Made by a program: the position numbers and the translations under genes. A stretch of DNA of 64,000 nt, taken from contig DEUP01000001.1 of assembly GCA_002362625.1 (NCBI GenBank), positions 9,540-73,539 of the forward strand, in the 5' to 3' direction. The DNA is from Clostridiales bacterium UBA3259 (GTDB lineage: Bacteria > Bacillota_A > Clostridia > Oscillospirales > Oscillospiraceae). The notes under the pieces are model-generated. The model was given only the letters and a program-made list of their open reading frames with translations, searched no databases and was not told the DNA's origin. Each line of letters begins with the position of its first letter. Position 1 is the first letter of the stretch. Of the stretch, positions 20,801-32,680 are shown piece after piece.

Positions 20801-22208
20801 CTCCGGCGAATACCAGAGTAAGGCCCACGCCTACTGTATTGAAATGTTCGGAAAATCCCACGTTTTCCGGGCGGGCACCATTGGTACCGTGGCGGAAAAG
20901 ACGGCCTTCGGCTATGTGAAGAAGTACCTCTCCGAACGGGGCAAAACCGCCTCCCGGGCGGAGGAAGGGAGACTGGCTTCCGGCTGCGTGGGCGTCCGCC
21001 GTACCACCGGCCAGCACCCCGGCGGCCTGGTGGTCATTCCCCAGGAAAATGAGATCTGGGACTTCTGCCCGGTGCAGCATCCCGCCGACGATCCCAACGC
21101 TGACCAGATCACCACCCACTTTGAATACCACTCCATGGAGGAAAATCTTCTGAAGCTTGACATGCTGGGTCACGATGACCCCACCATGATCCGGATGATG
21201 GAGGACATGACCGGAGTGGACGCCAAGACCATTCCTCTGGACGACAAGGATACCATGTCCATCTTCATTTCCTCCAAGGTTTTGGGCTATGAGGACGATC
21301 CGGTGCTTGGCCCCACGGGGGCTGTGGCCATTCCGGAATTCAATACCCGGTTTACAAGAGGCATGCTCATGGACACCTTGCCCACCCGGTTCGACACCCT
21401 GGTGCGGCTGTCCGGCTTCTCCCATGGCACGGACGTGTGGCTGGGCAACGCCAAGGATCTGATTACCTCCAAAACGGCTACCGTTGACTCCACAATCGGC
21501 TGCCGTGACGACATTATGCTCTATCTGATCTCCTGCGGCATGCCGGAAAAGCGTTCCTTTAAGATCATGGAGGCGGTGCGAAAGGGCAGAGGCCTGCCCG
21601 ACGGGGCCGAGGAGGAGATGAAGGCCGCCGGTGTGCCGGAATGGTACATTGGCTCCTGCAAGAAGATCAAGTACCTGTTCCCCAAGGCCCACGCCGTGGC
21701 CTATGTTATGATGGCCTTCCGGATCGCCTGGTTTAAGGTGCATCATCCTCTGGCCTTCTACGCGGCCTACTTCTACCGGCGGAGCCAGAAGGGCGGCTTT
21801 GACGCTGTGCTCATGACCCGCGGCAAGGAAGCGGTGCTTGCCAACATCGATGCCATCGAAAAGAACGAGGACGCCACCGCCAAGGACGAGGATCTGCTGA
21901 CCACCCTGGAAGTGGCCTATGAATACTACCTTCGGGGCTTCGAGTTTATGCCCATCGACTTGTACCAAAGCGAGGCCATTCGGTTTAAGATCGTGGACGG
22001 AAAGCTGCTGCCGCCCTTTGTGGCCATTTCCGGTTTGGGCGAAAACGCCGCCTGGGATCTGGTGGAGGGACGGAAGGGGAAGACCTTCCTGTCCATTGAG
22101 GAGGTGTCGGCTGCCTGTCCCAAGGTTTCCAAAACCCATATTCAGATGCTGAAGGACGCCGGGGCTTTTGGCAGCCTGCCGGACAACAGCCAGGTCAGCT
22201 TTTTTTAA
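17895..22208 (+). CDS. polC: DNA polymerase III alpha subunit, Gram-positive type
   Basis: PolC is the replicative polymerase with built-in proofreading typical of low-GC Firmicutes. The 1437-residue protein has an N-terminal domain, an OB fold around 225-300 (VIVEGRVFNVDHKELKK), a PHP domain from about 315 (RVELHLHTLMSN) into which the DEDDh exonuclease is inserted at about 417 (FVAFDLETTGLSS), a zinc-binding stretch around 904-936 (CPNPQCKY then CPKCG), the catalytic PDIDLNF at about 963, and the C-terminal fingers. The ATG lies behind TGAGGT. Convergent with the aromatic operon. Confidence 0.98.
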   Translation: MSEEVYFLNMFPDYEPPEELKDALSQAAIAAADIDPASRGVSVAVHSEAYVPQRWLTRAEKDIASLYGLAHMSITATHPASELHKMEPEELMQMFVSRNSMARGSLAGAKWDWRDTNLNIKLVANGKDALMELVPCIQEALRQRFATAVTITIEAGEALEGKALFDAMASLREKSLEAIPVSTHRPEKQQTKTAPTADDMLYGKPFRGTAVPMKDLSLDMGSVIVEGRVFNVDHKELKKRNAWVIKFDMTDNTGSIRISRFMDAAEAKPFLDNVKPGAVLRIQGRLTEDRFENDTVLKPFAMTTGSMPKRQDTAPGEKRVELHLHTLMSNMDALTNTADAINQAAAWGHRAIAITDHGCCQSFTDALHCVEGKKPPKVAGTDEIIKILYGCEGYYVNDVDDRIVVHGEQDMDFHQEFVAFDLETTGLSSRKDRIIEIGAVILKDGEEIDRFQTFVDPERPLERKIVELTGITDDMLQGAPKIEEVLPKFLDFIGGRVLVAHNSDFDTGFIRAECERLGYEYNYTAADTLILSQNLLTHLNKFKLNLVSDALNLPDFNHHRAGDDAFACGLIMTKLMEKLEQEHDIHTLQAINPAMMGLRAKGHITDRQARHIILFAKNQVGLRNLYHLISDANLKYFRRVPRIPKSELMEMREGLIIGSACEAGELFQAVLERKSEDELKRIASFYDFLEIQPLDNNKFMLAKGIAADEEELRNFNRTIVRLGEELGKMVVATGDVHFLNPEDEIFRHILLATKGFDDADRPNPLYFRTTDEMLQEFSYLGEEKAYEIVVTNPNRIADMCETMRPVPHNLFAPKIENSVEDLKNLVYTKFHRLYGDNPPEVFVKRVETELYDIINCHYDVIYMSAQKLVQNSLEHGYLVGSRGSVGSSIVAFMSGITEVNSFQPHYRCPNPQCKYTELNVPEGYNCGADLPDAVCPKCGTKMEKDGFNIPFETFLGFGGDKVPDIDLNFSGEYQSKAHAYCIEMFGKSHVFRAGTIGTVAEKTAFGYVKKYLSERGKTASRAEEGRLASGCVGVRRTTGQHPGGLVVIPQENEIWDFCPVQHPADDPNADQITTHFEYHSMEENLLKLDMLGHDDPTMIRMMEDMTGVDAKTIPLDDKDTMSIFISSKVLGYEDDPVLGPTGAVAIPEFNTRFTRGMLMDTLPTRFDTLVRLSGFSHGTDVWLGNAKDLITSKTATVDSTIGCRDDIMLYLISCGMPEKRSFKIMEAVRKGRGLPDGAEEEMKAAGVPEWYIGSCKKIKYLFPKAHAVAYVMMAFRIAWFKVHHPLAFYAAYFYRRSQKGGFDAVLMTRGKEAVLANIDAIEKNEDATAKDEDLLTTLEVAYEYYLRGFEFMPIDLYQSEAIRFKIVDGKLLPPFVAISGLGENAAWDLVEGRKGKTFLSIEEVSAACPKVSKTHIQMLKDAGAFGSLPDNSQVSFF

Positions 22209-22265: not shown

Positions 22266-22697
22266 TTAACCGTAGTTTTCTTTTAAATACAGGATCGCTT
22301 CCCGATAGCCTTCCAGGCCATGGCCCTTGATGGTCTTCACACAGGCAAGCCCGGCGTAGGATATCTGCCGGAAGGGCTCCCGGGCGTCCACATCGGAAAT
22401 GTGTACCTCCACCGCCGGAATCCTGACCGCTTTCAGCGCGTCCAGAATTGCCACAGAGGTGTGGGTGTAGGCGGCGGGGTTAATGACAATGCCGTCCATT
22501 TTCCCATAGGCCCACTGGATTTTGTCCACCAAACAGCCTTCGTGGTTGGATTGATACTGTTCTACTTCCACATTTTCTTCCTTCGCCGTGTTTTCCAAAA
22601 GAGCGAGAAGATCGGCAAAGGTGTTCGTACCGTAGATGCCCGGCTCCCGGATGCCCAGCATATTCAGGTTGGGGCCGTTGAGTACCAGTATTTTCAT
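22266..22697 (-). CDS. aroQ: 3-dehydroquinate dehydratase, type II
   Basis: Third step of the shikimate pathway. The 143-residue protein has the type II hallmarks: LVLNGPNLNMLGIREPGIYG at the N-terminus (catalytic Tyr), NHEGCLVDKIQ, NPAAYTHTSVAI and VEVHISDVDAREPFR. It is the last gene of the aromatic operon; its ATG overlaps the stop of the aroE-aroK fusion gene by four bases (ATGA). Confidence 0.97.
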   Translation of the reverse strand: MKILVLNGPNLNMLGIREPGIYGTNTFADLLALLENTAKEENVEVEQYQSNHEGCLVDKIQWAYGKMDGIVINPAAYTHTSVAILDALKAVRIPAVEVHISDVDAREPFRQISYAGLACVKTIKGHGLEGYREAILYLKENYG

Positions 22698-23923
22698 GGC
22701 GTTTCCTCCAAACAGGTAAGGATTGCGTTTACGGTGGACTCCGGCGTACCGTTATTGTCTATCGTAAAATCGGCGAAGGCTTCATATAGGGGCTTCCGCA
22801 GGCGGTACATGGCCTCCAGATCGTTTTTCAGGGACAGGGGACGGCCTTCCTTGGGAAGAAGGTTCAAATCCCGTTTCAGACAGAAAATCGTTCCGTTTTG
22901 GTGAAGCAGCGGATAATTTGTTTCCCTGGTCACACAGCCGCCGCCGGTGGCGAGAATCAGGCCGGAGCGATTCCCCAGGGATGCCAGAGCCTTTGTTTCC
23001 CAGTTTCGGAACACAGCCTCTCCGCCCTGGGCAAAAATCTCCGGAATGGATTTTCCCGCAAGGGTGGTGATAACCTCATCCGCATCCACCAGGGGCCGGC
23101 TTAAGTGCTTTGCCAGAGCCGCTCCAATGGTGCTTTTTCCACAGCCGGGCATCCCAATGAGGACAATGCTCTGCATCTGTACACGAAGCTTGCGGTAAAT
23201 GGCTTCAATGAGGGCATCGTCCAGCGTTTTCCCGGTAAAGTATTCGGCACTTTCCTTTGCCTGGGCCACCAGCATCCACAGCCCGTTTTCGTGGGGAATG
23301 CCCAGAGCCTCGGCATCCAGCAGCAGCTGGGTTTTGGCCGGATTGTAAACCACATCCAGTACCCCATCCAAATGGGGAAACTGCCACAGATCCAGAGGGG
23401 CAATACCGGTATGAGGATACATGCCCACGGGAGTGGTGTTTACAATCAGGGAAGCGTCCCGGTGGAGGGACAGGTTCTCATAGTTATTTTCACCGGAGCG
23501 GGAAATGACCACCGGTTCAGCGCCCAGATCACGAAGCGCATTGACGGCGGTGTTGGAAGCGCCGCCGCTGCCCAGTACCAGAGCCTTTTTCCCGGACGCA
23601 GGAATGCCGCTGCGCTTCACCAGGGAAACAAAGCCGTAGTAGTCCGAATTGTGGCCGAAGAGGGAACCGTCCTTCCTTCGGACAATGGTGTTTACACAGC
23701 CCATCTTTTTCGCGGCGGGGGACAGTTCATCCAGAAACGCTATTACGTCCTTCTTATAGGGCATGGTCACGTTTAGGCCTGTAAAATCCCCGTTGCGGAG
23801 AAAACTTTCCAACTCCTCCGGTTCCTTTTCATAGAGATCATAGGGGTAATCTCCCAGCCAGCTGTGGATCAGGGGAGAATAGCTGTGCCCCAGAACCCTG
23901 CCAAGCAAACCGCATTTCATCAT
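22694..23923 (-). CDS. aroE-aroK: Bifunctional shikimate dehydrogenase / shikimate kinase (AroE-AroK fusion)
   Basis: One uninterrupted 409-residue frame holds two pathway enzymes. Residues 1 to about 246 are AroE: shikimate site SYSPLIHSWL, catalytic Lys in NVTMPYKK (residue 57), HNSD with Asp94, and the NADP loop GSGGASN (119-125). Residues about 250-409 are AroK: Walker A GMPGCGKST (257-265), DADE (280-283) and the GGEAVFR and ATGGG shikimate/ATP motifs. The linker (IYRKLRVQMQ) is very short. The fusion performs steps four and five in one polypeptide. It overlaps pheA by ATGA. Confidence 0.93.
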   Translation of the reverse strand: MMKCGLLGRVLGHSYSPLIHSWLGDYPYDLYEKEPEELESFLRNGDFTGLNVTMPYKKDVIAFLDELSPAAKKMGCVNTIVRRKDGSLFGHNSDYYGFVSLVKRSGIPASGKKALVLGSGGASNTAVNALRDLGAEPVVISRSGENNYENLSLHRDASLIVNTTPVGMYPHTGIAPLDLWQFPHLDGVLDVVYNPAKTQLLLDAEALGIPHENGLWMLVAQAKESAEYFTGKTLDDALIEAIYRKLRVQMQSIVLIGMPGCGKSTIGAALAKHLSRPLVDADEVITTLAGKSIPEIFAQGGEAVFRNWETKALASLGNRSGLILATGGGCVTRETNYPLLHQNGTIFCLKRDLNLLPKEGRPLSLKNDLEAMYRLRKPLYEAFADFTIDNNGTPESTVNAILTCLEETP

Positions 23924-25062
23924 ACCACCTCAGTGAAGCTGCCAAAATACTTGAATTCCTCGCACAGCTCGTCCAGCTCGCAGATCAGCTGCACAAATTC
24001 CTCCGAGTAGATGGAGGTTTCCAGATCGAAATAGAACATAAACTCAAAATCCCGGTCAGGGATGGGACGGGATTCCAGCTTGGTGACGTTGATACCCAGG
24101 GTGTAGAGCCGGGCCAGCACCTTATACAGGGAGCCGGGACGATGGGGAAGCACCATCATGATGCTGGTCTTGTCGGAGCCGGGATAGATTTCCAGGTTCT
24201 TGCTGATGCACAGGAAACGGGTGCGGTTGTTGTCCTTATCCTGGACGGAGGAAGCAAGGCACTGTAGGCCGTACAGCTCGGCGCAGGTTCGGCTGCTGAG
24301 GGCAGCCACGTCCCGGCGGTCAGAGTTGGCTACCATTTCCGCCGCTATGGCGGTGTTGGCCACGGGAACAATGTTCACGCCGGTGAGACTCTGCAAAAAT
24401 TCACCGCACTGGTTCAGGGCCTGCTCATGGGAGTAAACTTCCTTGATTTCGGAAAGGGATACGCCGGGCTTTGCCAGAAGATTATGGTCGATCTTCAGGC
24501 GGAAGGTGCGGACGATGGAGAAGTTGTGCTTCTGCATCAGATCGTATACCTTTTTCACGGATCCGGCGGTGGAGTTTTCAATGGGCAGAATGCCGTACTG
24601 GCACATGCCCTGCTCAATGGCGGTAAAAACCGCCTCAAAGTTCTTAAAATAGAGGATAAAGGGATTTTGGAAGATCTTTTCACAGGCAATCTGGGAATAG
24701 GCGCCCTCCACGCCCTGACAGGCTACCATGGGGGCCTTGGGGAACAGCTTGGGGGTGTTTTCGATGGCCTGGGTAATCTGGGTGTACAGGGGACTGACAG
24801 CGGCGCTGCGCTTGCTCTGGTAGCTGCGGCTCAGCTCAAAGAGCATGGAGTACAGCACCCGAGTGTAGTTGGCCATTTCCGGCCCGGCCTTTTGGGCAAC
24901 GTCCTGCAGCTTGGCCCGTTCCCGGTTGGGCTGGAAGATGGGGAGGTTATGTTCCTTCTTGTAGTCGGAGATTTGGGCGGCGAAAGCCATGCGCTGGCCG
25001 AAAAGGCGTACCATTTCATCGTCAATCTTGTCGATCTCCTGGCGAAGCTGTGCTAAATCCAT
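23920..25062 (-). CDS. pheA: Bifunctional chorismate mutase / prephenate dehydratase
   Basis: PheA converts chorismate to prephenate and then phenylpyruvate. The 380-residue protein has an AroQ-type mutase helix bundle (1 to about 90, LRQEIDKIDDEMVRLFGQR), a dehydratase domain (about 110-290, GVEGAYSQIACEKIF, ILPIENSTAGSV and the catalytic NRTRFLCI), and a C-terminal ACT domain with LTKLESRPI-like sequence (here VTKLESRPI), which in this family binds Phe for feedback inhibition. It overlaps aroC upstream by 10 bases and aroE-aroK downstream by 4. Confidence 0.97.
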   Translation of the reverse strand: MDLAQLRQEIDKIDDEMVRLFGQRMAFAAQISDYKKEHNLPIFQPNRERAKLQDVAQKAGPEMANYTRVLYSMLFELSRSYQSKRSAAVSPLYTQITQAIENTPKLFPKAPMVACQGVEGAYSQIACEKIFQNPFILYFKNFEAVFTAIEQGMCQYGILPIENSTAGSVKKVYDLMQKHNFSIVRTFRLKIDHNLLAKPGVSLSEIKEVYSHEQALNQCGEFLQSLTGVNIVPVANTAIAAEMVANSDRRDVAALSSRTCAELYGLQCLASSVQDKDNNRTRFLCISKNLEIYPGSDKTSIMMVLPHRPGSLYKVLARLYTLGINVTKLESRPIPDRDFEFMFYFDLETSIYSEEFVQLICELDELCEEFKYFGSFTEVV

Positions 25063-26156
25063 AGTTCTTTCCTCCTGTTTGTCTGGGTATTTCCCAGGAT
25101 CATGTCATAAACGGCAATGGCTGCCGCCGCCTCCACCACGGGAACCGCCCGGGGAACGATGCAGGGGTCATGCCGGCCCTTGACTTCCAGAGTGGCGGAT
25201 GCTCCGGTTTTGAAATCAACAGACTGCTGGGGCCGGGAGATAGAGGGGGTTGGCTTGACGGCGGCGGTGAAGATTACTGGCATGCCGTTGGTGATACCTC
25301 CCAAAATGCCGCCCGCGTTATTGGTTAATGTGACAACCTTCCCGTTTTCAAAGGCAAAGGGATCGTTGCATTCACTGCCCTTCATGCGCGCTGCCTGGGC
25401 ACCCGCGCCGAAGCTTACGGACTTCACGGCGGGAATGCCGTAGACAATGGAGGCAATGCGGCTTTCCACGCCGCCGAACATTGGCTCTCCCAGTCCGGCG
25501 GGAATGCCGGTGATGAAGCATTCAATCATGCCGCCCAGACTGTCGCCCTCTGCCCGGGCCTGGCGGATGGCCTCCCGCATTCGGCTTCCGGCCTCCCGGG
25601 AGACTACAGGAAAGTCTTCTTCAATCAGATCCAGCTGGGGATTGAGCGGATCCAGAGGCGCGTCCCGGTCCTCCGTGCCGATGGACAGAATTCGTGCCCC
25701 AATCCGGATTCCCATTTTCTCCAGCCATTGCAGGCATAGTCCACCCGCAACGCAAAGGGGCGCGGTCAAACGGCCAGAGAAGTGACCGCCGCCGGCGGCA
25801 TCCTGAAAGCCTCCGTATTTTACCTGGGCGGTGTAGTCCGCGTGACCGGGACGGGGACAGGCTTTTAAGTTTTCGTAGTCGCCGGAACGGGTGTTGGTGT
25901 TGCGAATCACGGCGGCGATGGGAGCGCCGCAGGTAAAGCCATCCAGAATGCCGGACAGGAATTCCGCTTTGTCGGCTTCCTTCCGTGGGGTGGCGTAGTC
26001 GCGCTGTCCCGGAGCACGGCGGTTTAAGAAGGCTTGGAGGCGGTCGGCATCCACAGGCAGTCCCGCCGGGATTCCGTCCAGGGTCATGCCGATGGCAAGG
26101 CCGTGGGACTGGCCGAAAATGGCGAGCTTCAGATTTTCACCGTAGGTACTGCTCAT
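25053..26156 (-). CDS. aroC: Chorismate synthase
   Basis: AroC forms chorismate from EPSP using reduced FMN. The 367-residue protein shows the family patterns SHGLAIGMTLDGIPAGLPVD, RRAPGQRDYATPRKEAD-type (here LNRRAPGQRDYATPRKEAD), the KYGGFQDAAGGGHFSGRLT segment (GHFSGR) and the C-terminal GRHDPCIVPRAVPVVEA. It overlaps aroA by 20 bases and pheA by 10, so the operon is very compact. Confidence 0.97.
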   Translation of the reverse strand: MSSTYGENLKLAIFGQSHGLAIGMTLDGIPAGLPVDADRLQAFLNRRAPGQRDYATPRKEADKAEFLSGILDGFTCGAPIAAVIRNTNTRSGDYENLKACPRPGHADYTAQVKYGGFQDAAGGGHFSGRLTAPLCVAGGLCLQWLEKMGIRIGARILSIGTEDRDAPLDPLNPQLDLIEEDFPVVSREAGSRMREAIRQARAEGDSLGGMIECFITGIPAGLGEPMFGGVESRIASIVYGIPAVKSVSFGAGAQAARMKGSECNDPFAFENGKVVTLTNNAGGILGGITNGMPVIFTAAVKPTPSISRPQQSVDFKTGASATLEVKGRHDPCIVPRAVPVVEAAAAIAVYDMILGNTQTNRRKELWI

Positions 26157-27333
26157 AATGTCCTCCTAACCGGGCGTATTCTCCCCAGAACTGGGGATAG
26201 GATTTTTCACTGCATTCCGCGCCCAATATGGTTACCGGTTCCTTGCACACAGTGGCGGCAATGGCGGCGGCCATGGCGATGCGGTGATCGTTCCGGCTCT
26301 CTACCGTTCCGCCAATCAGCCCGGTGCCGCAGATGGTCAGGGTGTTTTCATCCGCTTCCGCTTTCCCGCCCAATGCGGTGAGCATATGGACGATGGAGGC
26401 TACCCGGTCGGATTCCTTCAAGCGAAGCCGCCGGATATCGGTAAAGACCGCGCCCTTCTTACAGGCGGCCACCACGGCGAGGATGGGAATGAGATCCGGA
26501 ACATCGGCGGCGGAAATAACCGCTCTGTTTTCCAGCTTTGGCAGAAGCTCCAAAATGGCCCGGTCTCCCTGGGGAGAATCCGGAGACAGATTTTTCACCT
26601 CTACAGCGTTTCCCAGAGCGGTGGCTCCCAGGAAGAAGGCACCGCCGCTCCAATCCCCCTCTACAGTGAGGGTGCCGGGAGAGTGGAGTTTTTGCCCTCC
26701 GTGAACGGTAAAATTCTCAGTATTGCATCCAAACAGGGCCATGGCCTGCTGGGTCATGGTGATATAGGGCTTGGATTCCAGCTTCCCGGTGATGGAAATG
26801 TGACTTTCCCCAGGGATTAGAGCGGCGGCCAGAAGCAGACCGGTGATAAACTGGCTGGAAACGCTGCCGCCAATGGTATAATTCCCGGCCTTTAACTGTC
26901 CCTGACAGCGGATGGTATGGGGCGTGGGACGGCTGAGCTGACAGCCCATCCGCGTAAGTTCCTCCCACAGAGGGGAAAGGGGACGTTCTGGAAGCCGTCC
27001 TTCCAGCTGGAAGGTGGTGTCCACCCCCAGGGCGCCGGCTACCGGGAGCAGAAAGCGCAGGGTAGAGCCGCTGTCATGGCAGGGTAGGATTGCCGCTTCC
27101 GGCGCAGAAGAAATGGGTTTGACCAGGTAACCTTTCTCAGTGTGGGAGATCTCCGCGCCCAAGGCCCGGAGACAGTCGGCGGTGGCCTCAATGTCCCGGT
27201 TGGTTTCCGGGCAGAGGAGAGTGGTTTCCCTGTCCGCAAAGGCGGCGCAGATTAGTAACCTGTGGGCTTGGGATTTGGAGGGAATGGCGGTTACGGTTCC
27301 GGAAAGAGTTCCGGGATAAATGGTGATATCCAT
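26137..27333 (-). CDS. aroA: 3-phosphoshikimate 1-carboxyvinyltransferase (EPSP synthase)
   Basis: AroA joins PEP to shikimate 3-phosphate. The 398-residue protein is a little shorter than typical (about 427). Recognisable are IPSKSQAHRLLICAAFAD (PSKS), HDSGSTLRFLLPVAGALG (the DSGSTLRF variant of the G-N-[AS]-G-T region), GSVSSQFITGLLLAA, and RLRLKESDRVASI near residue 300. The PEP-loop sequence DSGSTLRF places it nearer class II enzymes than the E. coli type (inference). Confidence 0.95.
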   Translation of the reverse strand: MDITIYPGTLSGTVTAIPSKSQAHRLLICAAFADRETTLLCPETNRDIEATADCLRALGAEISHTEKGYLVKPISSAPEAAILPCHDSGSTLRFLLPVAGALGVDTTFQLEGRLPERPLSPLWEELTRMGCQLSRPTPHTIRCQGQLKAGNYTIGGSVSSQFITGLLLAAALIPGESHISITGKLESKPYITMTQQAMALFGCNTENFTVHGGQKLHSPGTLTVEGDWSGGAFFLGATALGNAVEVKNLSPDSPQGDRAILELLPKLENRAVISAADVPDLIPILAVVAACKKGAVFTDIRRLRLKESDRVASIVHMLTALGGKAEADENTLTICGTGLIGGTVESRNDHRIAMAAAIAATVCKEPVTILGAECSEKSYPQFWGEYARLGGHYEQYLR

Positions 27334-27334
27334 A

Positions 27335-28387
27335 TCATAGACCTGCCTGAATCCAGTCTTTTAGGGCTTCCACGGGAATGGGAAGAATGTCGCACCGGCC
27401 GATGGCCCGGGGAACAATGAGCTTCACCTGACCGCCGGAGCGCTTCTTGTCGGAAAGGGCGCTGGTGTAGAGGGAAGCCGGGCTATATTCCGTGGCTGTG
27501 GGAAGACCGAAGGTATGGAGAACCTGCAAAAGACGGTCGCAGTCCTCCTGGGAGAACATGTCGTATTTTACAGCGGCTCTGGCGATGATGGCCATACCGA
27601 TGGCAACGGACTTCCCGTGGGAAAGAGAAAATTCACTGACAGCCTCCACACCGTGGCCGATGGTATGGCCCAGGTTCAGCTTCATTCGGCTGCCCGTATC
27701 GAATTCGTCCTCGGCAACTACATCCCGTTTCAGTTCCACGCACCGGGTGATAACGGCCTCCCGGTCAAAGGAGAGCCCCTTTGCTTCCAGGTGGGAAAAT
27801 AATTCCGGGTCATAGAGAACGCCGTACTTGATGACCTCCGCGCAGCCGTCCCGGAAGATGTCCTCCGGGAGAGACAGCAGGGCATCCGTGTCGCACAGCA
27901 CCAGATTTGGCTGGCAGAAGGCACCGGCCAGGTTTTTCCCGGCGGACAGGTCAATGGCGGTTTTGCCGCCCACGGAGGAATCCACCGCGGCGAGCAGGGT
28001 GGTGGGGATTTGGATAAACCGGATCCCACGGAGGAAGCTGGCGGCGGCGAAGCCTGCCAGGTCTCCCACCACACCGCCGCCCAGAGCAACAATCATGTCT
28101 GAACGGGTGAGCTGCTTCTGAGCCAGAAAGTCCAGCAGACTGAGGAAGGTCTGGCCATTTTTGCTGGCCTCTCCGGCGGGAAAGACAAAGGTTTCCACCT
28201 GAAACCCGGCCTGTTCCAGGCTGGATCTGACCGTTTCCCCGAAGAGGGGGAAAACGGTGGTTTCACTGACGACGCACACCTTTTCCGCCTTGCCCAGGGC
28301 CTTAACGGCCTGGCCAAGGGTACCCATGACGCCGGAGCCAATGCGGATATCATAGGTTTTGGATGCGCTGACGGTAACGGTCTTCAT
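27335..28387 (-). CDS. aroB: 3-dehydroquinate synthase
   Basis: AroB cyclises DAHP to 3-dehydroquinate with NAD+ and zinc. The 350-residue protein contains the NAD region DMIVALGGGVVGDLAGFAAA, IPTTLLAAVDSSVGGKTAI with the active-site Lys, and metal ligands in the NLGHTIGHGVEA and LSHGKSVAIGM segments. It overlaps tyrA by ATGA and is two bases from aroA. Confidence 0.97.
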   Translation of the reverse strand: MKTVTVSASKTYDIRIGSGVMGTLGQAVKALGKAEKVCVVSETTVFPLFGETVRSSLEQAGFQVETFVFPAGEASKNGQTFLSLLDFLAQKQLTRSDMIVALGGGVVGDLAGFAAASFLRGIRFIQIPTTLLAAVDSSVGGKTAIDLSAGKNLAGAFCQPNLVLCDTDALLSLPEDIFRDGCAEVIKYGVLYDPELFSHLEAKGLSFDREAVITRCVELKRDVVAEDEFDTGSRMKLNLGHTIGHGVEAVSEFSLSHGKSVAIGMAIIARAAVKYDMFSQEDCDRLLQVLHTFGLPTATEYSPASLYTSALSDKKRSGGQVKLIVPRAIGRCDILPIPVEALKDWIQAGL

Positions 28388-29214
28388 CCGTCCACCTCCT
28401 CTTTGCGTTGCTTGCCTTCCTCCAGCAGAGCGGTGAGGGTATCCATATCCTCTTTTTCAATGGCCTCCCGGTAGGCGGAAAGGCTTCCGATATATTGATC
28501 CAGCTCAAAGAGCAGATTTTCCCGGTTTTCCAGGAACAGCTCTGCCCACATCTGGGGATTGAGCCAGGCGACCCGGGTCAAATCCTTGTAGCTTCCGGCG
28601 GAGAAGCCCTTGTGGCTTAGAGCTGTGGGGGACTTGATAAAGGCGTTGCTTAAGATGTGGGGCATTTGGGAGGTAAAGGCAATCATTTTGTCATGCTGCT
28701 GGGCGGTGGTCACGGAGAAGAAGCCAAAATGACAGGGATCCAGCAGCTTTTTCACCCGATCCAGAAGAAGGATATTGTCAAATACCGGGGGGACCAGTAC
28801 CATAGGCGCTCCATCGAACAAGTCGGCACGACTGTACTTAAAGCCGGAAAACTGAGAGCCTGCCATGGGGTGGCCGCCCACAAAGGTGAAGCCATACCGA
28901 TTAGCCACAGGGAAGCACCGGCGGCAAATCTCTTCCTTGGTGCCGCAGCAGTCCATGACCAGGGTAACTCTGGAAATGAGAGAACCGTTTGCTTCCAGCC
29001 AGGCGGCGCTGCCGCCGGGATAGATGGCCAGCAGAATCAAATCACATTGAGGGATGGTCGTTTCGTCCAACCGCCCGTGGACGGCTCCCGCCAGCATAGC
29101 AAAGGAAAGCATATTTTCGTCCTTTTCGGCGGCGTAGACGGTATGTCCTTCCAGGGCGTAAGCCCGGGCCAGAGAGCCGCCGATCAGCCCAAGTCCTAAA
29201 ATTCCTACCTTCAT
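28384..29214 (-). CDS. tyrA: Prephenate dehydrogenase
   Basis: TyrA oxidises prephenate to 4-hydroxyphenylpyruvate, the tyrosine branch. The 276-residue protein begins with a Rossmann motif GILGLGLIGGSLARAYALEG and contains the catalytic-domain segment VGGHPMAGSQFSGFKYSRAD with the conserved HPMAG, and the helical dimerisation part after about residue 170. No ACT domain follows, so tyrosine feedback by that route is absent. Its ATG overlaps the aroB and aroF neighbours by four bases each. Confidence 0.95.
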   Translation of the reverse strand: MKVGILGLGLIGGSLARAYALEGHTVYAAEKDENMLSFAMLAGAVHGRLDETTIPQCDLILLAIYPGGSAAWLEANGSLISRVTLVMDCCGTKEEICRRCFPVANRYGFTFVGGHPMAGSQFSGFKYSRADLFDGAPMVLVPPVFDNILLLDRVKKLLDPCHFGFFSVTTAQQHDKMIAFTSQMPHILSNAFIKSPTALSHKGFSAGSYKDLTRVAWLNPQMWAELFLENRENLLFELDQYIGSLSAYREAIEKEDMDTLTALLEEGKQRKEEVDG

Positions 29215-30212
29215 TGGATGGCCTCACGGATCTTCTTAATGTGGTGGGCGATTTCGTCAAACTGGGGCGGGGTCAGGGACTGCGCGCCGTCACATAGAGC
29301 GCAGGCGGGATTGTTGTGAACCTCGATCATCAGACCGTCGGCGCCGCTGGCAACGGCGGCGTAGGCCATGGGAGCTACCAGGTTTGCCTTGCCGGTGGCG
29401 TGGCTGGGATCCACCACCACAGGCAGGTGGGTCAGATTGTGAAGCACCGGCACGGCGGACAGATCCAGGGTGTTCCGGGTGGCGGTTTCAAAGGTACGGA
29501 TGCCACGTTCGCAGAGGATGATATTTTCGTTGCCCTCGCTCATGATGTACTCGGCGCTCATAAGCAGCTCCTGGATGGTATTCGCCAGGCCGCGCTTGAG
29601 CAAAATGGGCTTGTTGGTCTTACCAAGCTCCTTTAAAAGGTCGAAGTTCTGCATGTTCCGGGCACCCACCTGGATGATGTCCACGTCAGCGAACAGATCC
29701 AGGGTGGAGATGTTCATGATCTCCGTGACGATGGGAAGGCCTGTGGCTTTTTTGGCTTCCAGAAGCAGCCGGATGCCTTCGCCCTTCATGCCCTGGAAGG
29801 CGTAGGGAGAGGTGCGGGGCTTGAAAGCGCCGCCCCGGAGAATGGTGGCGCCGGAGGCCTTCACTGCCTGGGCAACCTCAATGATCTGCTCCTCGGATTC
29901 CACGGAGCAGGGGCCGGCAATGGCGGCAAAGTAGCCGCCGCCGATCCGGGCATTGCCCACGGTGACGATGGTATCCTTGGGATGGAATTTCCGGTTTGCC
30001 TGCTTGTAAGGCTCAGATACCCGCTTGACAGAATCCACCATTTCCAGGCTTTTCAGAAGATCCATGTCCACCCGGCTGGTGTCGCCGATGAGGCCCAGAA
30101 CGGTCACTTCGGAGCCTTCGGAAATGTGGACGTCCAAATTCATGGTTTTCAGCCAGCCAACCAGATGCTGAAGCTGGGCAGGGGTGGTTCCATGCTTTAA
30201 AATGGCAATCAT
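29211..30212 (-). CDS. aroF: 3-deoxy-7-phosphoheptulonate (DAHP) synthase, type I-beta
   Basis: The first committed shikimate step (PEP + erythrose 4-phosphate). From the ATG at 30212 the product has 333 residues; the frame's earlier ATG is rejected because AGGAGAT abuts it, while it is 8 bases from 30212. Residues 1 to about 70 form the ferredoxin-like regulatory domain of I-beta enzymes; the barrel carries AIAGPCSVES, LRGGAFKPRTSPYAFQG, LLKRG, RGIRTFE and DPSHATGK. First structural gene of the operon, directly behind the Phe/Tyr attenuator. Confidence 0.96.
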   Translation of the reverse strand: MIAILKHGTTPAQLQHLVGWLKTMNLDVHISEGSEVTVLGLIGDTSRVDMDLLKSLEMVDSVKRVSEPYKQANRKFHPKDTIVTVGNARIGGGYFAAIAGPCSVESEEQIIEVAQAVKASGATILRGGAFKPRTSPYAFQGMKGEGIRLLLEAKKATGLPIVTEIMNISTLDLFADVDIIQVGARNMQNFDLLKELGKTNKPILLKRGLANTIQELLMSAEYIMSEGNENIILCERGIRTFETATRNTLDLSAVPVLHNLTHLPVVVDPSHATGKANLVAPMAYAAVASGADGLMIEVHNNPACALCDGAQSLTPPQFDEIAHHIKKIREAIQ

Positions 30213-30226
30213 AAGTAACATCTCCT

Positions 30227-30335
30227 AAAAAATAACGCCGCACGGCAATTCGTGCGGCGTTGTAATTACGCTTTATATCCCGAAATCTGAGCAGCACAAA
30301 TTGCTATTACCTTTTTCTTCCAAAAAAGTAATAGC
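30227..30335 (-). promoter_or_regulatory. Ribosome-mediated transcription attenuator of the aromatic operon
   Basis: Minus strand, in order: a hairpin formed inside the leader-peptide gene (30335-30303; GCTATTAC pairs with GTAATAGC, its 5' arm is the Tyr-Tyr-Phe-Phe codons); an antiterminator strand GCAATTTGTGC (30304-30294); its partner GCACGAATTGC (30255-30245), complementary except for one G-U; and the terminator, 11-bp stem AACGCCGCACG / CGTGCGGCGTT (30261-30234) followed by ATTTTTT. The antiterminator uses the 5' arm and loop of the terminator, so the two folds exclude each other. The first hairpin and the antiterminator strand share GC. This is the textbook four-segment arrangement. The terminator ends 15 bases before the aroF start codon. 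Confidence 0.85.
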
Positions 30336-30372
30336 TAAAATAAAAGTATGCAGCGCTAGAGGTGATAACCAT
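30307..30372 (-). CDS. Phe/Tyr leader peptide of the aromatic operon
   Basis: A 21-residue peptide starts at the ATG at 30372, with GGAGG nine bases upstream. It begins MVITSSAA, continues YFYFSYYFF and ends GRKR. Eight of nine residues at 9-17 are Tyr or Phe (four each), the amino acids made through the operon's own TyrA and PheA. The stop codon lies at the end of the first leader hairpin, so a ribosome stalled at uncharged Tyr or Phe codons would cover its 5' arm. Too short for routine gene callers. The coding role is inferred from composition and position. Confidence 0.85.
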   Translation of the reverse strand: MVITSSAAYFYFSYYFFGRKR

Positions 30373-30405
30373 TGTGTTTTTCCTCCAAGTCCGGGTGCTG
30401 TGGAC

Positions 30406-30434
30406 ATTGTAGCACGGCTGGTGGAAAAATGCAA
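30406..30434 (-). promoter_or_regulatory. Promoter of the aromatic amino acid operon
   Basis: On the minus strand TTGCAT (30434-30429), a 17-bp spacer and TACAAT (30411-30406) precede the leader-peptide ATG by 33 bases. This leaves a leader RNA of roughly 190 bases before aroF. Confidence 0.8.
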
Positions 30435-30512: not shown

Positions 30513-30538
30513 AACCACAAAAAATGGGAGGCGGCGCA

Positions 30539-32680
30539 ATGGATTATTTAAAGGACTTGAATCCCCAGCAGTTGGAGGCTGCAACCACAACGGAAGGGTG
30601 CATTCGTGTGGTGGCGGGAGCCGGCTCCGGAAAGACGAAAACCCTGACGGCTAGGTATATGTACCTGGTGGATCAGCTGGGCATTTCCACGGCAAACATT
30701 CTCTGCGTCACCTTCACCAACAAGGCGGCGGCGGAGATGAAAAAGCGGATCCGACGAACCCTTCCCGACCAGGATCTGGGCAGGATCACCACCTTCCACG
30801 GCTTCTGCGTGGGCCTTCTCAAAGAAGACTGCCATGTGGTGCGGTATCCCACCACCTTTATCGTTCTGGACGAAGAGGACAAGGAAGCCATGCTGCGCAC
30901 GGTGTTTGAGGATCTGGGGATCACCAGCCGGGAGCTGACGGTGAAGGAGGCCATCGACCATATCGGTTGGAGAAAAGGCGGTCGTGGGTATGTGAAGACC
31001 CTGATTGGAGACCCGGAGCGGCTGAGGACGCTGTCCGCCGAGGCAACGACCCTGAAGGATAAGGTCATGTACCGCTACTTTTACGAGCAGAGAAAGTGCT
31101 ATGGGCTGGACTTTGACGATCTTATCTACTTTGCCCTGTATATTTTGGAGCAGGACAGGGAAACCCGGGAGAAGTGGCAGTCCCGGCTGGAATACATTAT
31201 GGTGGACGAGTTTCAGGACATTGACAAGGATCAATACGCCCTGGCGGACATTCTCTCCGGGTACCACAAGAATCTGTTTGTGGTGGGCGACCCGGATCAG
31301 ACCATTTACACCTGGCGGGGCGCGGACGTAAAGTTCATACTGGAATTTGACAGCCGTCATGAAAACGTCAAAACCATATACTTAAACACCAACTACCGCT
31401 CCATACCTCAGATCCTCACCGCCTCCAACGCCCTGATTGACAAAAACCGGGATCGTCTGAAAAAGCAGCTCACCGCTGTCCGGCCTGACGATAAAAAGCC
31501 CCTCTACTTCCACGCCAAAACCGGCCAGCTGGAAGCGGACTGGATGACGGCCAACATGCGGGCCCTCCATGACGGGGGCGTGCCCTATTCCGCCATGGGC
31601 GTTCTCTACCGTGCCCACTATGTTTCCCGGACGGTGGAGGAATCCCTGATCCGGAACAAAATTCCCTATGTGCTGTATTCCGGCGTGGAATTTTATAAGC
31701 GGAAGGAAATCAAGGATGTGCTGTGCTATCTGCGGATGATCTATTCCGGAGACGATATCAGCTTCCTGCGGACGGTGAATGAGCCCCGCCGGGGCGTGGG
31801 CCGCACCCGGATTGGGGCGCTGAAGGAGTTTGCGGCGCTGAACCAGTGCAGCCTGTATGAAGCGCTGAAGACGAATCTGGAAACAGAGCTGTTCCACCGG
31901 TGCCGGGCCAAGGAATATGTGCGGCTCATTGAAAAGTACCGGGCTATCTTTGACGGAATGGATCTGACAGATCTGTTGGCGGGTATTTTAGCGGAAAGCG
32001 GCTATGAGGACATGCTCCGCTCCTGCGGCGAGGAAGAGCGGCTTGACAACCTGGCGGAGCTGAAGCAGGCCATCTACGACTTCGAGCGGAAGGCGGGGGA
32101 GGAGGTTACCTTAGGAAACTATCTGGATCACGCGGCCCTCTTTACCAACATGGATCAGACGGAAAAGGCCCAGGCGGTGAAGCTCATGACCATCCACGCC
32201 GCCAAGGGCCTGGAATTCCCGGTGGTGTTCCTGTGCGGCATGTCCGAGGGGATATTCCCCGGCAAGCGGGCCAATACCCGGGAAAAGCTGGAGGAGGAGC
32301 GGCGGCTGTGCTACGTTGCCTTCACCCGGGCCAGGGATCGGCTGTACCTTTCCGACGCGGCGGGAACCAATTATGACGGCTCCTTCCGGTATCCCAGCCG
32401 GTTCCTGTTCAACGCCGAAAAAGAGAACGTAGAATACGCCGTTCCCCTTGACCCGGAGCTGGAAGAGCGGGCTCTGGAGCAGATCCGCCGGACGGAGGAC
32501 GTGGATTCCCGCCCGGAGCAGCCCAGCGAGCTGATCGGCAAACGGGTCTTGCATCCGGTGTTCGGAGAGGGCAGCGTCATCGGCATTCCCAGGGGGCAGG
32601 AAGGGGTTATCATCCAGTTTGACACCATGGTGACGCCAAGAACCTTTGGGCCCACCGCGAAGATTACCTATTTATCCTGA
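30539..32680 (+). CDS. pcrA: ATP-dependent DNA helicase, PcrA/UvrD type
   Basis: A superfamily 1A 3'-5' helicase for repair and removal of protein roadblocks. From the ATG at 30539 (behind GGGAGGCGG) it has 713 residues. Motifs: Q-motif LNPQQLEAA, Walker A AGAGSGKTKT (about residue 28), Ia TFTNKAAAEM, II VDEFQDID, III VVGDPDQTIYTWRGA, IV LNTNYRS, V IHAAKGLEFPVVF and VI YVAFTRARDRL. The C-terminal tail (KRVLHPVFGEGSVIGI) matches the PcrA/UvrD Tudor-like RNA-polymerase-binding region. Divergent from the aromatic operon. Confidence 0.95.
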   Translation: MDYLKDLNPQQLEAATTTEGCIRVVAGAGSGKTKTLTARYMYLVDQLGISTANILCVTFTNKAAAEMKKRIRRTLPDQDLGRITTFHGFCVGLLKEDCHVVRYPTTFIVLDEEDKEAMLRTVFEDLGITSRELTVKEAIDHIGWRKGGRGYVKTLIGDPERLRTLSAEATTLKDKVMYRYFYEQRKCYGLDFDDLIYFALYILEQDRETREKWQSRLEYIMVDEFQDIDKDQYALADILSGYHKNLFVVGDPDQTIYTWRGADVKFILEFDSRHENVKTIYLNTNYRSIPQILTASNALIDKNRDRLKKQLTAVRPDDKKPLYFHAKTGQLEADWMTANMRALHDGGVPYSAMGVLYRAHYVSRTVEESLIRNKIPYVLYSGVEFYKRKEIKDVLCYLRMIYSGDDISFLRTVNEPRRGVGRTRIGALKEFAALNQCSLYEALKTNLETELFHRCRAKEYVRLIEKYRAIFDGMDLTDLLAGILAESGYEDMLRSCGEEERLDNLAELKQAIYDFERKAGEEVTLGNYLDHAALFTNMDQTEKAQAVKLMTIHAAKGLEFPVVFLCGMSEGIFPGKRANTREKLEEERRLCYVAFTRARDRLYLSDAAGTNYDGSFRYPSRFLFNAEKENVEYAVPLDPELEERALEQIRRTEDVDSRPEQPSELIGKRVLHPVFGEGSVIGIPRGQEGVIIQFDTMVTPRTFGPTAKITYLS

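Follow-up and report, generated by a model that had tools for sequence, protein, structure and literature searches.

The aromatic operon and its leader region

The window (the whole 64-kb stretch of DNA that was analysed) carries on its reverse strand eight genes in the order aroF-tyrA-aroB-aroA-aroC-pheA-aroEK-aroQ, in which adjacent genes overlap or abut (Table 1). The next gene past aroQ is polC, which is convergent and ends at 22208, so that one switch can serve all eight genes, as had been proposed in an earlier note on this DNA. A 1,133-aa ORF located 3' of aroQ was considered as a ninth gene of the operon and rejected, as it exhibits no family match and PolC is encoded on the opposite strand. 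Upstream of the leader lies a divergently oriented gene for a pcrA-like helicase (30524-32680, plus strand). The start of aroF, previously placed at 30221, is probably the ATG at 30212, because the Shine-Dalgarno (SD) sequence AGGAG (30226-30222) abuts the ATG at 30221 and most homologues align only from residue 2-4.

The region upstream of aroF contains, in the order of transcription, a putative promoter, a short ORF with its own SD sequence, a hairpin (hairpin 1, or 1:2), a candidate antiterminator and an intrinsic terminator, all of which the earlier note had pointed out and all of which were found again. The promoter was recognized by eye and is unlisted by the consensus scan of the leader region; the comparison of upstream stretches revealed a TTGCA/TATAAT-like pair at the equivalent site in relatives. 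The translated leader includes the stretch YFYFSYYFF, i.e. 4 Tyr and 4 Phe among 9 codons. The 5' arm of hairpin 1 is formed by the Tyr-Tyr-Phe-Phe codons, while its 3' arm, AAAAAGGUAAUAGC, includes the UAA stop of the leader and a second in-frame UAG. The core of the antiterminator pairing joins 30304-30294 (strand 2) with 30255-30245 (strand 3), and extensions reach 30291 and 30258. In the window, the overlap of hairpin 1 with strand 2 amounts to just 2 nt, and therefore the two are not strongly exclusive there. Folding of the window leader, suggested earlier as a check, yielded a minimum free energy of -56.1 kcal/mol (z = -4.17), and an equally low value was reached in none of 200 shuffles.

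Table 1. Features of the aroF leader and of the downstream operon (window coordinates)
Feature	Position	Strand	Remarks
Putative promoter, sigma-70 type, TTGCAT-17 nt-TACAAT	30406..30434	-	sequence reading by eye
Promoter boxes	TTGCAT 30434-30429; TACAAT 30411-30406	-	17 nt between
SD sequence GGAGG of the leader ORF	30382..30386	-	9 nt 5' of ATG
Leader peptide gene, MVITSSAAYFYFSYYFFGRKR	30307..30372	-	ATG 30372, stop UAA 30309-30307, 21 codons
Hairpin 1 (1:2)	30303..30335	-	14 pairs, one G-U
Strand 2, antiterminator 5' strand, GCAATTTGTGCTGC	30291..30304	-	duplex with strand 3, -19.2 kcal/mol
Strand 3, GCCGCACGAATTGC	30245..30258	-	portion of terminator 5' arm plus loop; pairs with strand 2
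Intrinsic terminator	30227..30261	-	11-bp stem 30261-30234, T-run 30232-30227 (six T)
aroF, DAHP synthase	29211..30212	-	probable start, corrected from 30221
tyrA, prephenate dehydrogenase	28384..29214	-	protein family assignment
aroB, 3-dehydroquinate synthase	27335..28387	-	protein family assignment
aroA, EPSP synthase	26137..27333	-	protein family assignment
aroC, chorismate synthase	25053..26156	-	protein family assignment
pheA, chorismate mutase-prephenate dehydratase	23920..25062	-	protein family assignment
aroE-aroK fusion, shikimate dehydrogenase-shikimate kinase	22694..23923	-	one protein
aroQ, type II 3-dehydroquinate dehydratase	22266..22697	-	last gene of the operon

Conservation of the leader at related aroF loci

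Related loci were collected by a scan of genome contigs with AroF, and the best 80 of 592 confirmed relatives were analyzed by fixed joint criteria, according to which an ORF with at least 5 aromatic codons in nine must be followed by a terminator upstream of aroF. Leader and terminator were found at 62 of the 80 loci listed, which together with the window make up the set of 63 loci used below; the 18 failing loci comprise 4 with a terminator and no qualifying leader and 14 with no sufficiently scoring terminator. The shuffle control was carried out for a stricter criterion only (ATG, SD sequence and at least 6 Phe/Tyr in 9 codons): such SD-led ORFs occur in 47 of 81 upstream stretches vs 1 of 8,100 dinucleotide shuffles, and in none of the 81 reverse strands of the same stretches. 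The presence of an aromatic leader before aroF is beyond chance. The 18 closest loci share a common core, CTATTACTT..GTAATAG, followed by a strand resembling GCGATTTGTGCTGC and by a terminator of the type GCxGCAC.. or similar, while the spacers are unconserved; L016 is the most divergent member. The earlier note would have been contradicted by related genomes that keep aroF and lack a conserved peptide and stems; instead, the leader, terminator and antiterminator are kept in the relatives with compensatory changes.

Each of the 115 distinct aroF leaders counted in the clostridial set contains Phe as well as Tyr in its nine-codon stretch; these leaders had been chosen for aromatic richness and not for containing both amino acids. 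This list joins the 63-locus set with leaders from the model-match searches; absent from it are the near-identical L083, L137 and L156, four loci with a Phe/Tyr leader and no scored terminator (L035, L071, L072, L077), and all leaders from Treponemataceae. The aroF leaders of L035 and L071 end in WRWRKF and combine Tyr/Phe with Trp codons in front of no scored terminator; possibly, they work by another mechanism.

Pairing and covariation

The earlier note had proposed that the strand just past the stop codon is complementary to the 5' arm and loop of the terminator, and this complementarity turned out to be stronger, on average, within a locus than between loci. Over the 63 loci, the mean energy of the own strand 2:strand 3 duplex is -14.9 kcal/mol, vs -11.9 with a swapped partner (Wilcoxon 5.6e-11) and -9.1 with a shuffled strand 2 (3e-12), and in the window -19.2 vs -14.4 (mean of swapped partners) and -8.1 (shuffled); at 8 of the 63 loci the own duplex is no better than the swapped mean. 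Thus, by the comparison of own and swapped duplexes, the alternative pairing that excludes the terminator exhibits covariation.

In the alignment of 18 close sequences, from which L016 was left out, changes on both sides are found in 10 of the 25 pairs of hairpin 1 and the terminator, a value reached by 0 of 500 shuffles; they are divided into 2 of 14 pairs in hairpin 1 and 8 of 11 in the terminator. The measure of "further pair types" was reached by 55 of the 500 shuffles. Paired cells amount to 90.6% in the true structure and to 34-60% in slid structures. When 77 sequences were aligned on the model R1, both-side changes appeared in 24 of 25 pairs (hairpin 1: 13 of 14) with 308 doubly changed cells vs 93.6 after shuffling, although this alignment was fitted to the structure and therefore leans toward it. 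The pair formed by columns 14 and 58 of the R1 alignment is AU in 30, UA in 23 and UG in 14 cases; in the frame of the window this corresponds to a swap of Tyr UAU to Phe UUU that is mirrored in the opposite arm.

The position of strand 2 relative to the leader ORF was assigned with an anchor in the 63 loci: it lies past the stop in 35, within the ORF in phase 1 in 9 (e.g. ..KVKALCAA) and in phase 2 in another 9 (e.g. ..SDLCCK), and was not found in 10. As strand 2 is located either past the stop or in two other frames, it is the pairing rather than the peptide that appears to be conserved there. These data bear on the possibility that the element is a structured RNA regulator (a riboswitch-, T-box- or protein-bound leader), in which the Phe/Tyr codons would be a by-product of U-rich pairing and the ORF would be no sensor. 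Hairpin 1 is indeed A/U-rich, Phe and Tyr codons are U-rich, and strand 2 is very highly conserved among close relatives. However, Phe/Tyr codons occur already ahead of the hairpin (YFYF, preceding SYYFF), strand 2 occurs in three frame settings while the Phe/Tyr run keeps to the frame of the ORF (for which, admittedly, the ORFs had been chosen), the codons change with the target gene (see below), and neither an Rfam match in the window nor a T-box in 20 related aroF loci was detected. We therefore regard such a regulator as very improbable; a purely structural, untranslated RNA was judged unlikely from the frame and codon evidence.

Predicted mechanism and masked-ribosome folding

The promoter, ORF, helices, covariation and placement, as documented by the sequences, can be combined into a mechanism in which translation, stalling, termination and the response to amino acids are deduced steps. 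Soon after transcription begins at the promoter, a ribosome would trail the polymerase on the leader ORF, and hairpin 1 may serve as a pause that couples the two. With ample Phe and Tyr, the ribosome would get to the UAA stop and its footprint would extend over strand 2, whose start is 2 nt beyond the stop codon; strand 3 would then be free to pair with strand 4 and transcription would terminate upstream of aroF. Under a shortage of Phe-tRNA or Tyr-tRNA, a ribosome stalled on the Tyr/Phe run would open hairpin 1 and expose strand 2, which could take strand 3 before strand 4 exists and thus allow read-through into aroF-tyrA-aroB-aroA-aroC-pheA-aroEK-aroQ.

The two situations were simulated by folding with a ribosome footprint of one size blocked either at the Tyr/Phe codons or at the stop, in transcripts ending after strand 3. 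The mean probability of the 2:3 pairing over the 63 loci is 0.73 with a stalled ribosome, 0.15 with a ribosome at the stop and 0.39 without a ribosome (0.93, 0.08 and 0.87 in the window), although the drop at the stop is partly produced by the mask itself. The difference between the stalled and the stop state exceeds 0.3 in 48 of 63 loci (Wilcoxon 1.3e-11). The other 15 do not exceed this value; several close relatives show little 2:3 pairing even when stalled (L003 0.19, L007 0.03, L008 0.00, L022 0.08), and the order is reversed, with stop above stalled, at L039, L043 and L064. According to these probabilities, stalling should give read-through and completion of the leader should give termination. 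Equilibrium folding of the full-length RNA was rejected as a discriminator, for the terminator is preferred in all states (0.90 stalled, 0.95 at the stop, 0.95 with no ribosome); since it wins in each of them, the switch would have to be kinetic. In E. coli, the trp operon is superattenuated without translation, whereas in the window the antiterminator is predicted with a probability of 0.87 without a ribosome; given the 2-nt overlap of hairpin 1 with strand 2, strong termination is not expected when translation is absent.

Thus, the window possesses a leader ORF, presumably translated, with codons for the end products of the operon, an intrinsic terminator before the first gene and, according to the masked folding (window; 48 of 63 loci), an arrangement in which a stall frees strand 2 and the stop covers it, provided that the kinetic assumption holds. 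By far the best explanation of the element is, in our opinion, ribosome-mediated attenuation in response to Phe/Tyr starvation.

Putative re-coded copies before other genes

Searches with the models revealed leaders of the same kind before genes other than aroF. R1, which represents aroF leaders only, matches L097, L105, L115, L116, L118, L120, L123 and L124 at E ≤ 2e-5. These and further matches precede pheA alone (AEFTFFYF in L116 and L120), paaK-like phenylacetate-CoA ligase genes (FMFFFAFYF in L115, AFFFNSAFDYCFF in L124), sodium:solute symporter genes (EYYYSYYF in L097, CYYYSY in L168), genes for TrpB-like enzymes (AWFWWFSF in L118, KYWYFYF in L152, FYWFWFSF in G112), an aroB-aroA-aroC cluster (KYWRRFGF in L123) and genes for TrpX-type ABC binding proteins (L105, L122, G090 and G136, of which L122 is a weak R2 match with E 6e-4). 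The codons vary with the gene: in sets that are small (1-4 leaders each), the pheA/paaK leaders are Phe-biased relative to the aroF leaders (p 6.5e-4, n=4), the symporter leaders are Tyr-biased (p 0.009, n=2), and Trp is present in 3/3 trpB-like leaders vs 9/126 others (Fisher 6e-4). The four TrpX leaders fall in the codon range of the aroF leaders except L122, with Tyr only in its nine-codon stretch.

This covariation of codons and genes argues against nascent-peptide arrest of the TnaC or SecM kind, in which the aromatic peptide would stall on a metabolite and not on uncharged tRNA. Small-molecule-dependent stalling of ribosomes by peptides does exist, and a basic tail is common among the closest leaders; however, the order and number of Phe/Tyr vary among the leaders, their C-terminal part is unconserved as a peptide, and Trp, Phe or Tyr codons track the downstream gene as expected for starvation sensing, so that we give peptide arrest only a very small chance. 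Least probable of all is an ordinary terminator behind an untranslated leader with no amino-acid response: the terminator by itself is a standard element, but conservation extends jointly to the promoter, the leader and the alternative pairing and, the pcrA-like neighbour being divergent, no same-strand gene ends upstream of the leader.

Returning to the attenuator, its copies are rare at each kind of gene. R2 matches are found at 1 of 30 PaaK and 3 of 30 TrpX loci, and clear ones at 1 of 30 TrpB-like (plus one weak) and 2 of 30 symporter loci (plus two weak). None of the best 30 pheA loci carries the R2 scaffold, and the standalone Phe leaders are therefore represented by two cases; we suppose that most of these pheA genes lie inside the aroF operon. 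T-boxes were detected in relatives at 9 of 20 TrpX loci (eight upstream on the strand of the gene, by coordinates), at 1 of 20 PaaK loci (upstream) and at 4 of 20 symporter or TrpB-like loci (three upstream). As T-boxes occur at the same gene families, the two sensors, attenuator and T-box, appear to have been exchanged at the same kinds of gene.

To judge from these comparisons, the element is one member of a widespread RNA family that has other targets as well, a point that had escaped the earlier note. On balance, though with considerable reserve, we favour the view that this is one codon-programmable family, whose homologous scaffold (hairpin 1, strand 2 near GATTTGTGCTGC and a complementary terminator) has been copied to new aromatic genes, retuned by exchanging its Tyr, Phe and Trp codons while the hairpin arm changed in compensation, has traded places with T-boxes, and has passed with aroF into some Treponemataceae. 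If the codon-programmable reading is true, the leader codons predict the substrates of unassigned transporters, e.g. a Tyr-side role for the sodium-symporter family; the amino acid sensed by the scaffold could be read from its codons, which would provide testable predictions on transporters and aryl-acid salvage genes, as well as a natural series for studying attenuator duplication, re-coding and exchange with T-boxes.

Several additional observations were made at the matching loci. At L310 (G112:C39) and L311 (G229:C97), a second SD-led mini-ORF with Trp codons was noticed by eye between the terminator and the trpB-like gene, encoding MYLLTKRWRLWRHI in G112 and MPLSKRW in G229, each followed by a stop; perhaps these are tandem Trp sensors. 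L172 (G074:C57:161-284) has the leader MSFIFSVVVVIVLVGVIVIIDNADRRCAGKGR before an ilvB-like gene and a weak R2 match (E 0.003), and looks like a branched-chain leader attenuator. L181 (G309:C16:34573-34673) has a scaffold-like leader, MTRNNVFGTGNYYCKE, with two Tyr codons only, and its target gene was not recognised. L174 (G151:C36:10196-10306) is a chance R2 match inside a T-box-like sequence before a thrS-like gene (GGGTGGAACCGTGG); one genome thus seems to contain both T-boxes and the leader scaffold. The sodium symporter gene adjoins paaK in G076:C22, G155:C131 and G124:C6, with a TrpB-like gene nearby in G076, and this neighbourhood suggests a cluster for aryl-acid salvage. The symporter matches in G091, G101, G078, G068 and G104 contain one in-frame TGA each, and those in G015 and G045 one TAA each, which may reflect read errors, decay or recoding.

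Relation to known systems

In enteric bacteria, leader-peptide attenuation belongs to textbook knowledge, while for aromatic genes the Firmicutes are said to use T-boxes; a proteobacterial Phe leader family is among the families of Rfam 15. The enteric pheL-pheA, pheST and trp/his leaders likewise combine a short ORF with regulatory codons, an alternative antiterminator/terminator and aromatic genes. Unlike the enteric Phe leaders, the element of the window contains Tyr and Phe codons together, precedes an eight-gene operon, resides in a Clostridia-type host and has no Rfam match. In the 64-kb window, no Rfam 15 family matched at the gathering threshold, which makes this an RNA element that Rfam 15 does not match there, and only five unrelated families at chance level appeared at E ≤ 1. 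A T-box (RF00230) or another known RNA was accordingly rejected for the window, no covariance model having matched at gathering, and a T-box was found in 0 of 20 related aroF loci tested, about 15 of which lack a clear leader. T-box leaders share with the leaders described here premature termination governed by tRNA charging at TrpX, PaaK, symporter, TrpB-like and DAHP-synthase loci; they differ in binding tRNA directly and in having no leader peptide, and none is present in the window.

In an older paper (PMC1262725), phe attenuators and pheST are mentioned in gamma-proteobacteria and it is stated that no aminoacyl-tRNA-synthetase gene of Firmicutes uses classical attenuation. Among the published work consulted, the closest counterparts are the uORFC-13-1 motif and the his leaders of Firmicutes. 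The uORFC-13-1 motif, known upstream of aroF from 24 sequences in Acholeplasma and environmental DNA only, likewise has a terminator stem preceded by a uORF in which one or more Phe codons occur, and attenuation was proposed for it (PMC8632094). The his leaders of Firmicutes, including Eubacteriales, are, so far as the consulted sections of the reports go (PMC9413887, PMC2965389; also PMC4833913 for his leader attenuators in Firmicutes), another example of a leader-peptide attenuator in a setting in which T-boxes or repressors commonly exert the control, but those described in the first two reports use histidine codons, control his, hisS and hisZ genes and comprise no aromatic regulon. No description of a Phe/Tyr leader attenuator in Clostridia was found in the parts consulted of the open-access literature (PMC). 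The mechanism is of a known kind; what appears to be new is the family, together with its breadth and codon retuning.

Distribution across genomes and occurrence in Treponemataceae

Within the family that includes G001, the genome carrying L001 (the closest locus), R1 matches at E ≤ 0.01 were obtained in 66 of 150 sampled genomes, some of them antisense or look-alikes. R2 matches were obtained in 53 of 295 genomes of the order sample, including at least four look-alikes (G384, G232, G166, G351), and in 11 of 398 genomes of the phylum sample, seven of them (L161-L167) without a credible aromatic leader; only 12 (order) and 9 (phylum) candidates were scored per genome, and therefore misses are likely. 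Set aside as look-alikes with no convincing aromatic leader were L111-L114, L126, L127, L129, L130, L133 and L161-L167, as well as L170, L171, L173, L175-L180, L182, L183 and L185-L187. One locus (L169/L125, G030:C158:6769-6899) has an R2 match with E 2.9e-7 and no clear aromatic leader or recognisable gene.

DAHP synthase was identified in 192 of 219 genomes of a phylum-wide sample. The contrast with T-box control in Firmicutes, drawn in the earlier note, is borne out by its loci: the Phe/Tyr leader is present in 0 of the best 30, and Rfam detects a T-box in 7 of 20 of these, five of which end 50-75 nt 5' of the gene by coordinates. With R1 matches in 66 of 150 genomes, the Phe/Tyr leader nevertheless seems to be a frequent means of controlling the chorismate/Phe/Tyr operon within a single family of Clostridia.

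A close AroF is found also in 89 of 118 genomes of the family of G006 (Treponemataceae), and 9 of the best 20 aroF loci there carry Phe/Tyr leaders. Three of these loci (L348-L350) match R2 at E<1e-6, and their AroF proteins are 70-71% identical to that of the window (the next one 67%); an R2 match together with the AroF closest to that of the window suggests a joint transfer of the gene and its switch into some Treponemataceae. Phe/Tyr(/Trp) leaders were observed before aroF also at L358, L360, L361, L362, L365 and L366, where the run is followed by other sequences (..SSR, ..HSR, ..SHC, ..YSC); the R2 match is weak (three of the six, E 0.001-0.06) or absent, and the leader of L365, which stands outside the 115 counted above, contains Tyr only.
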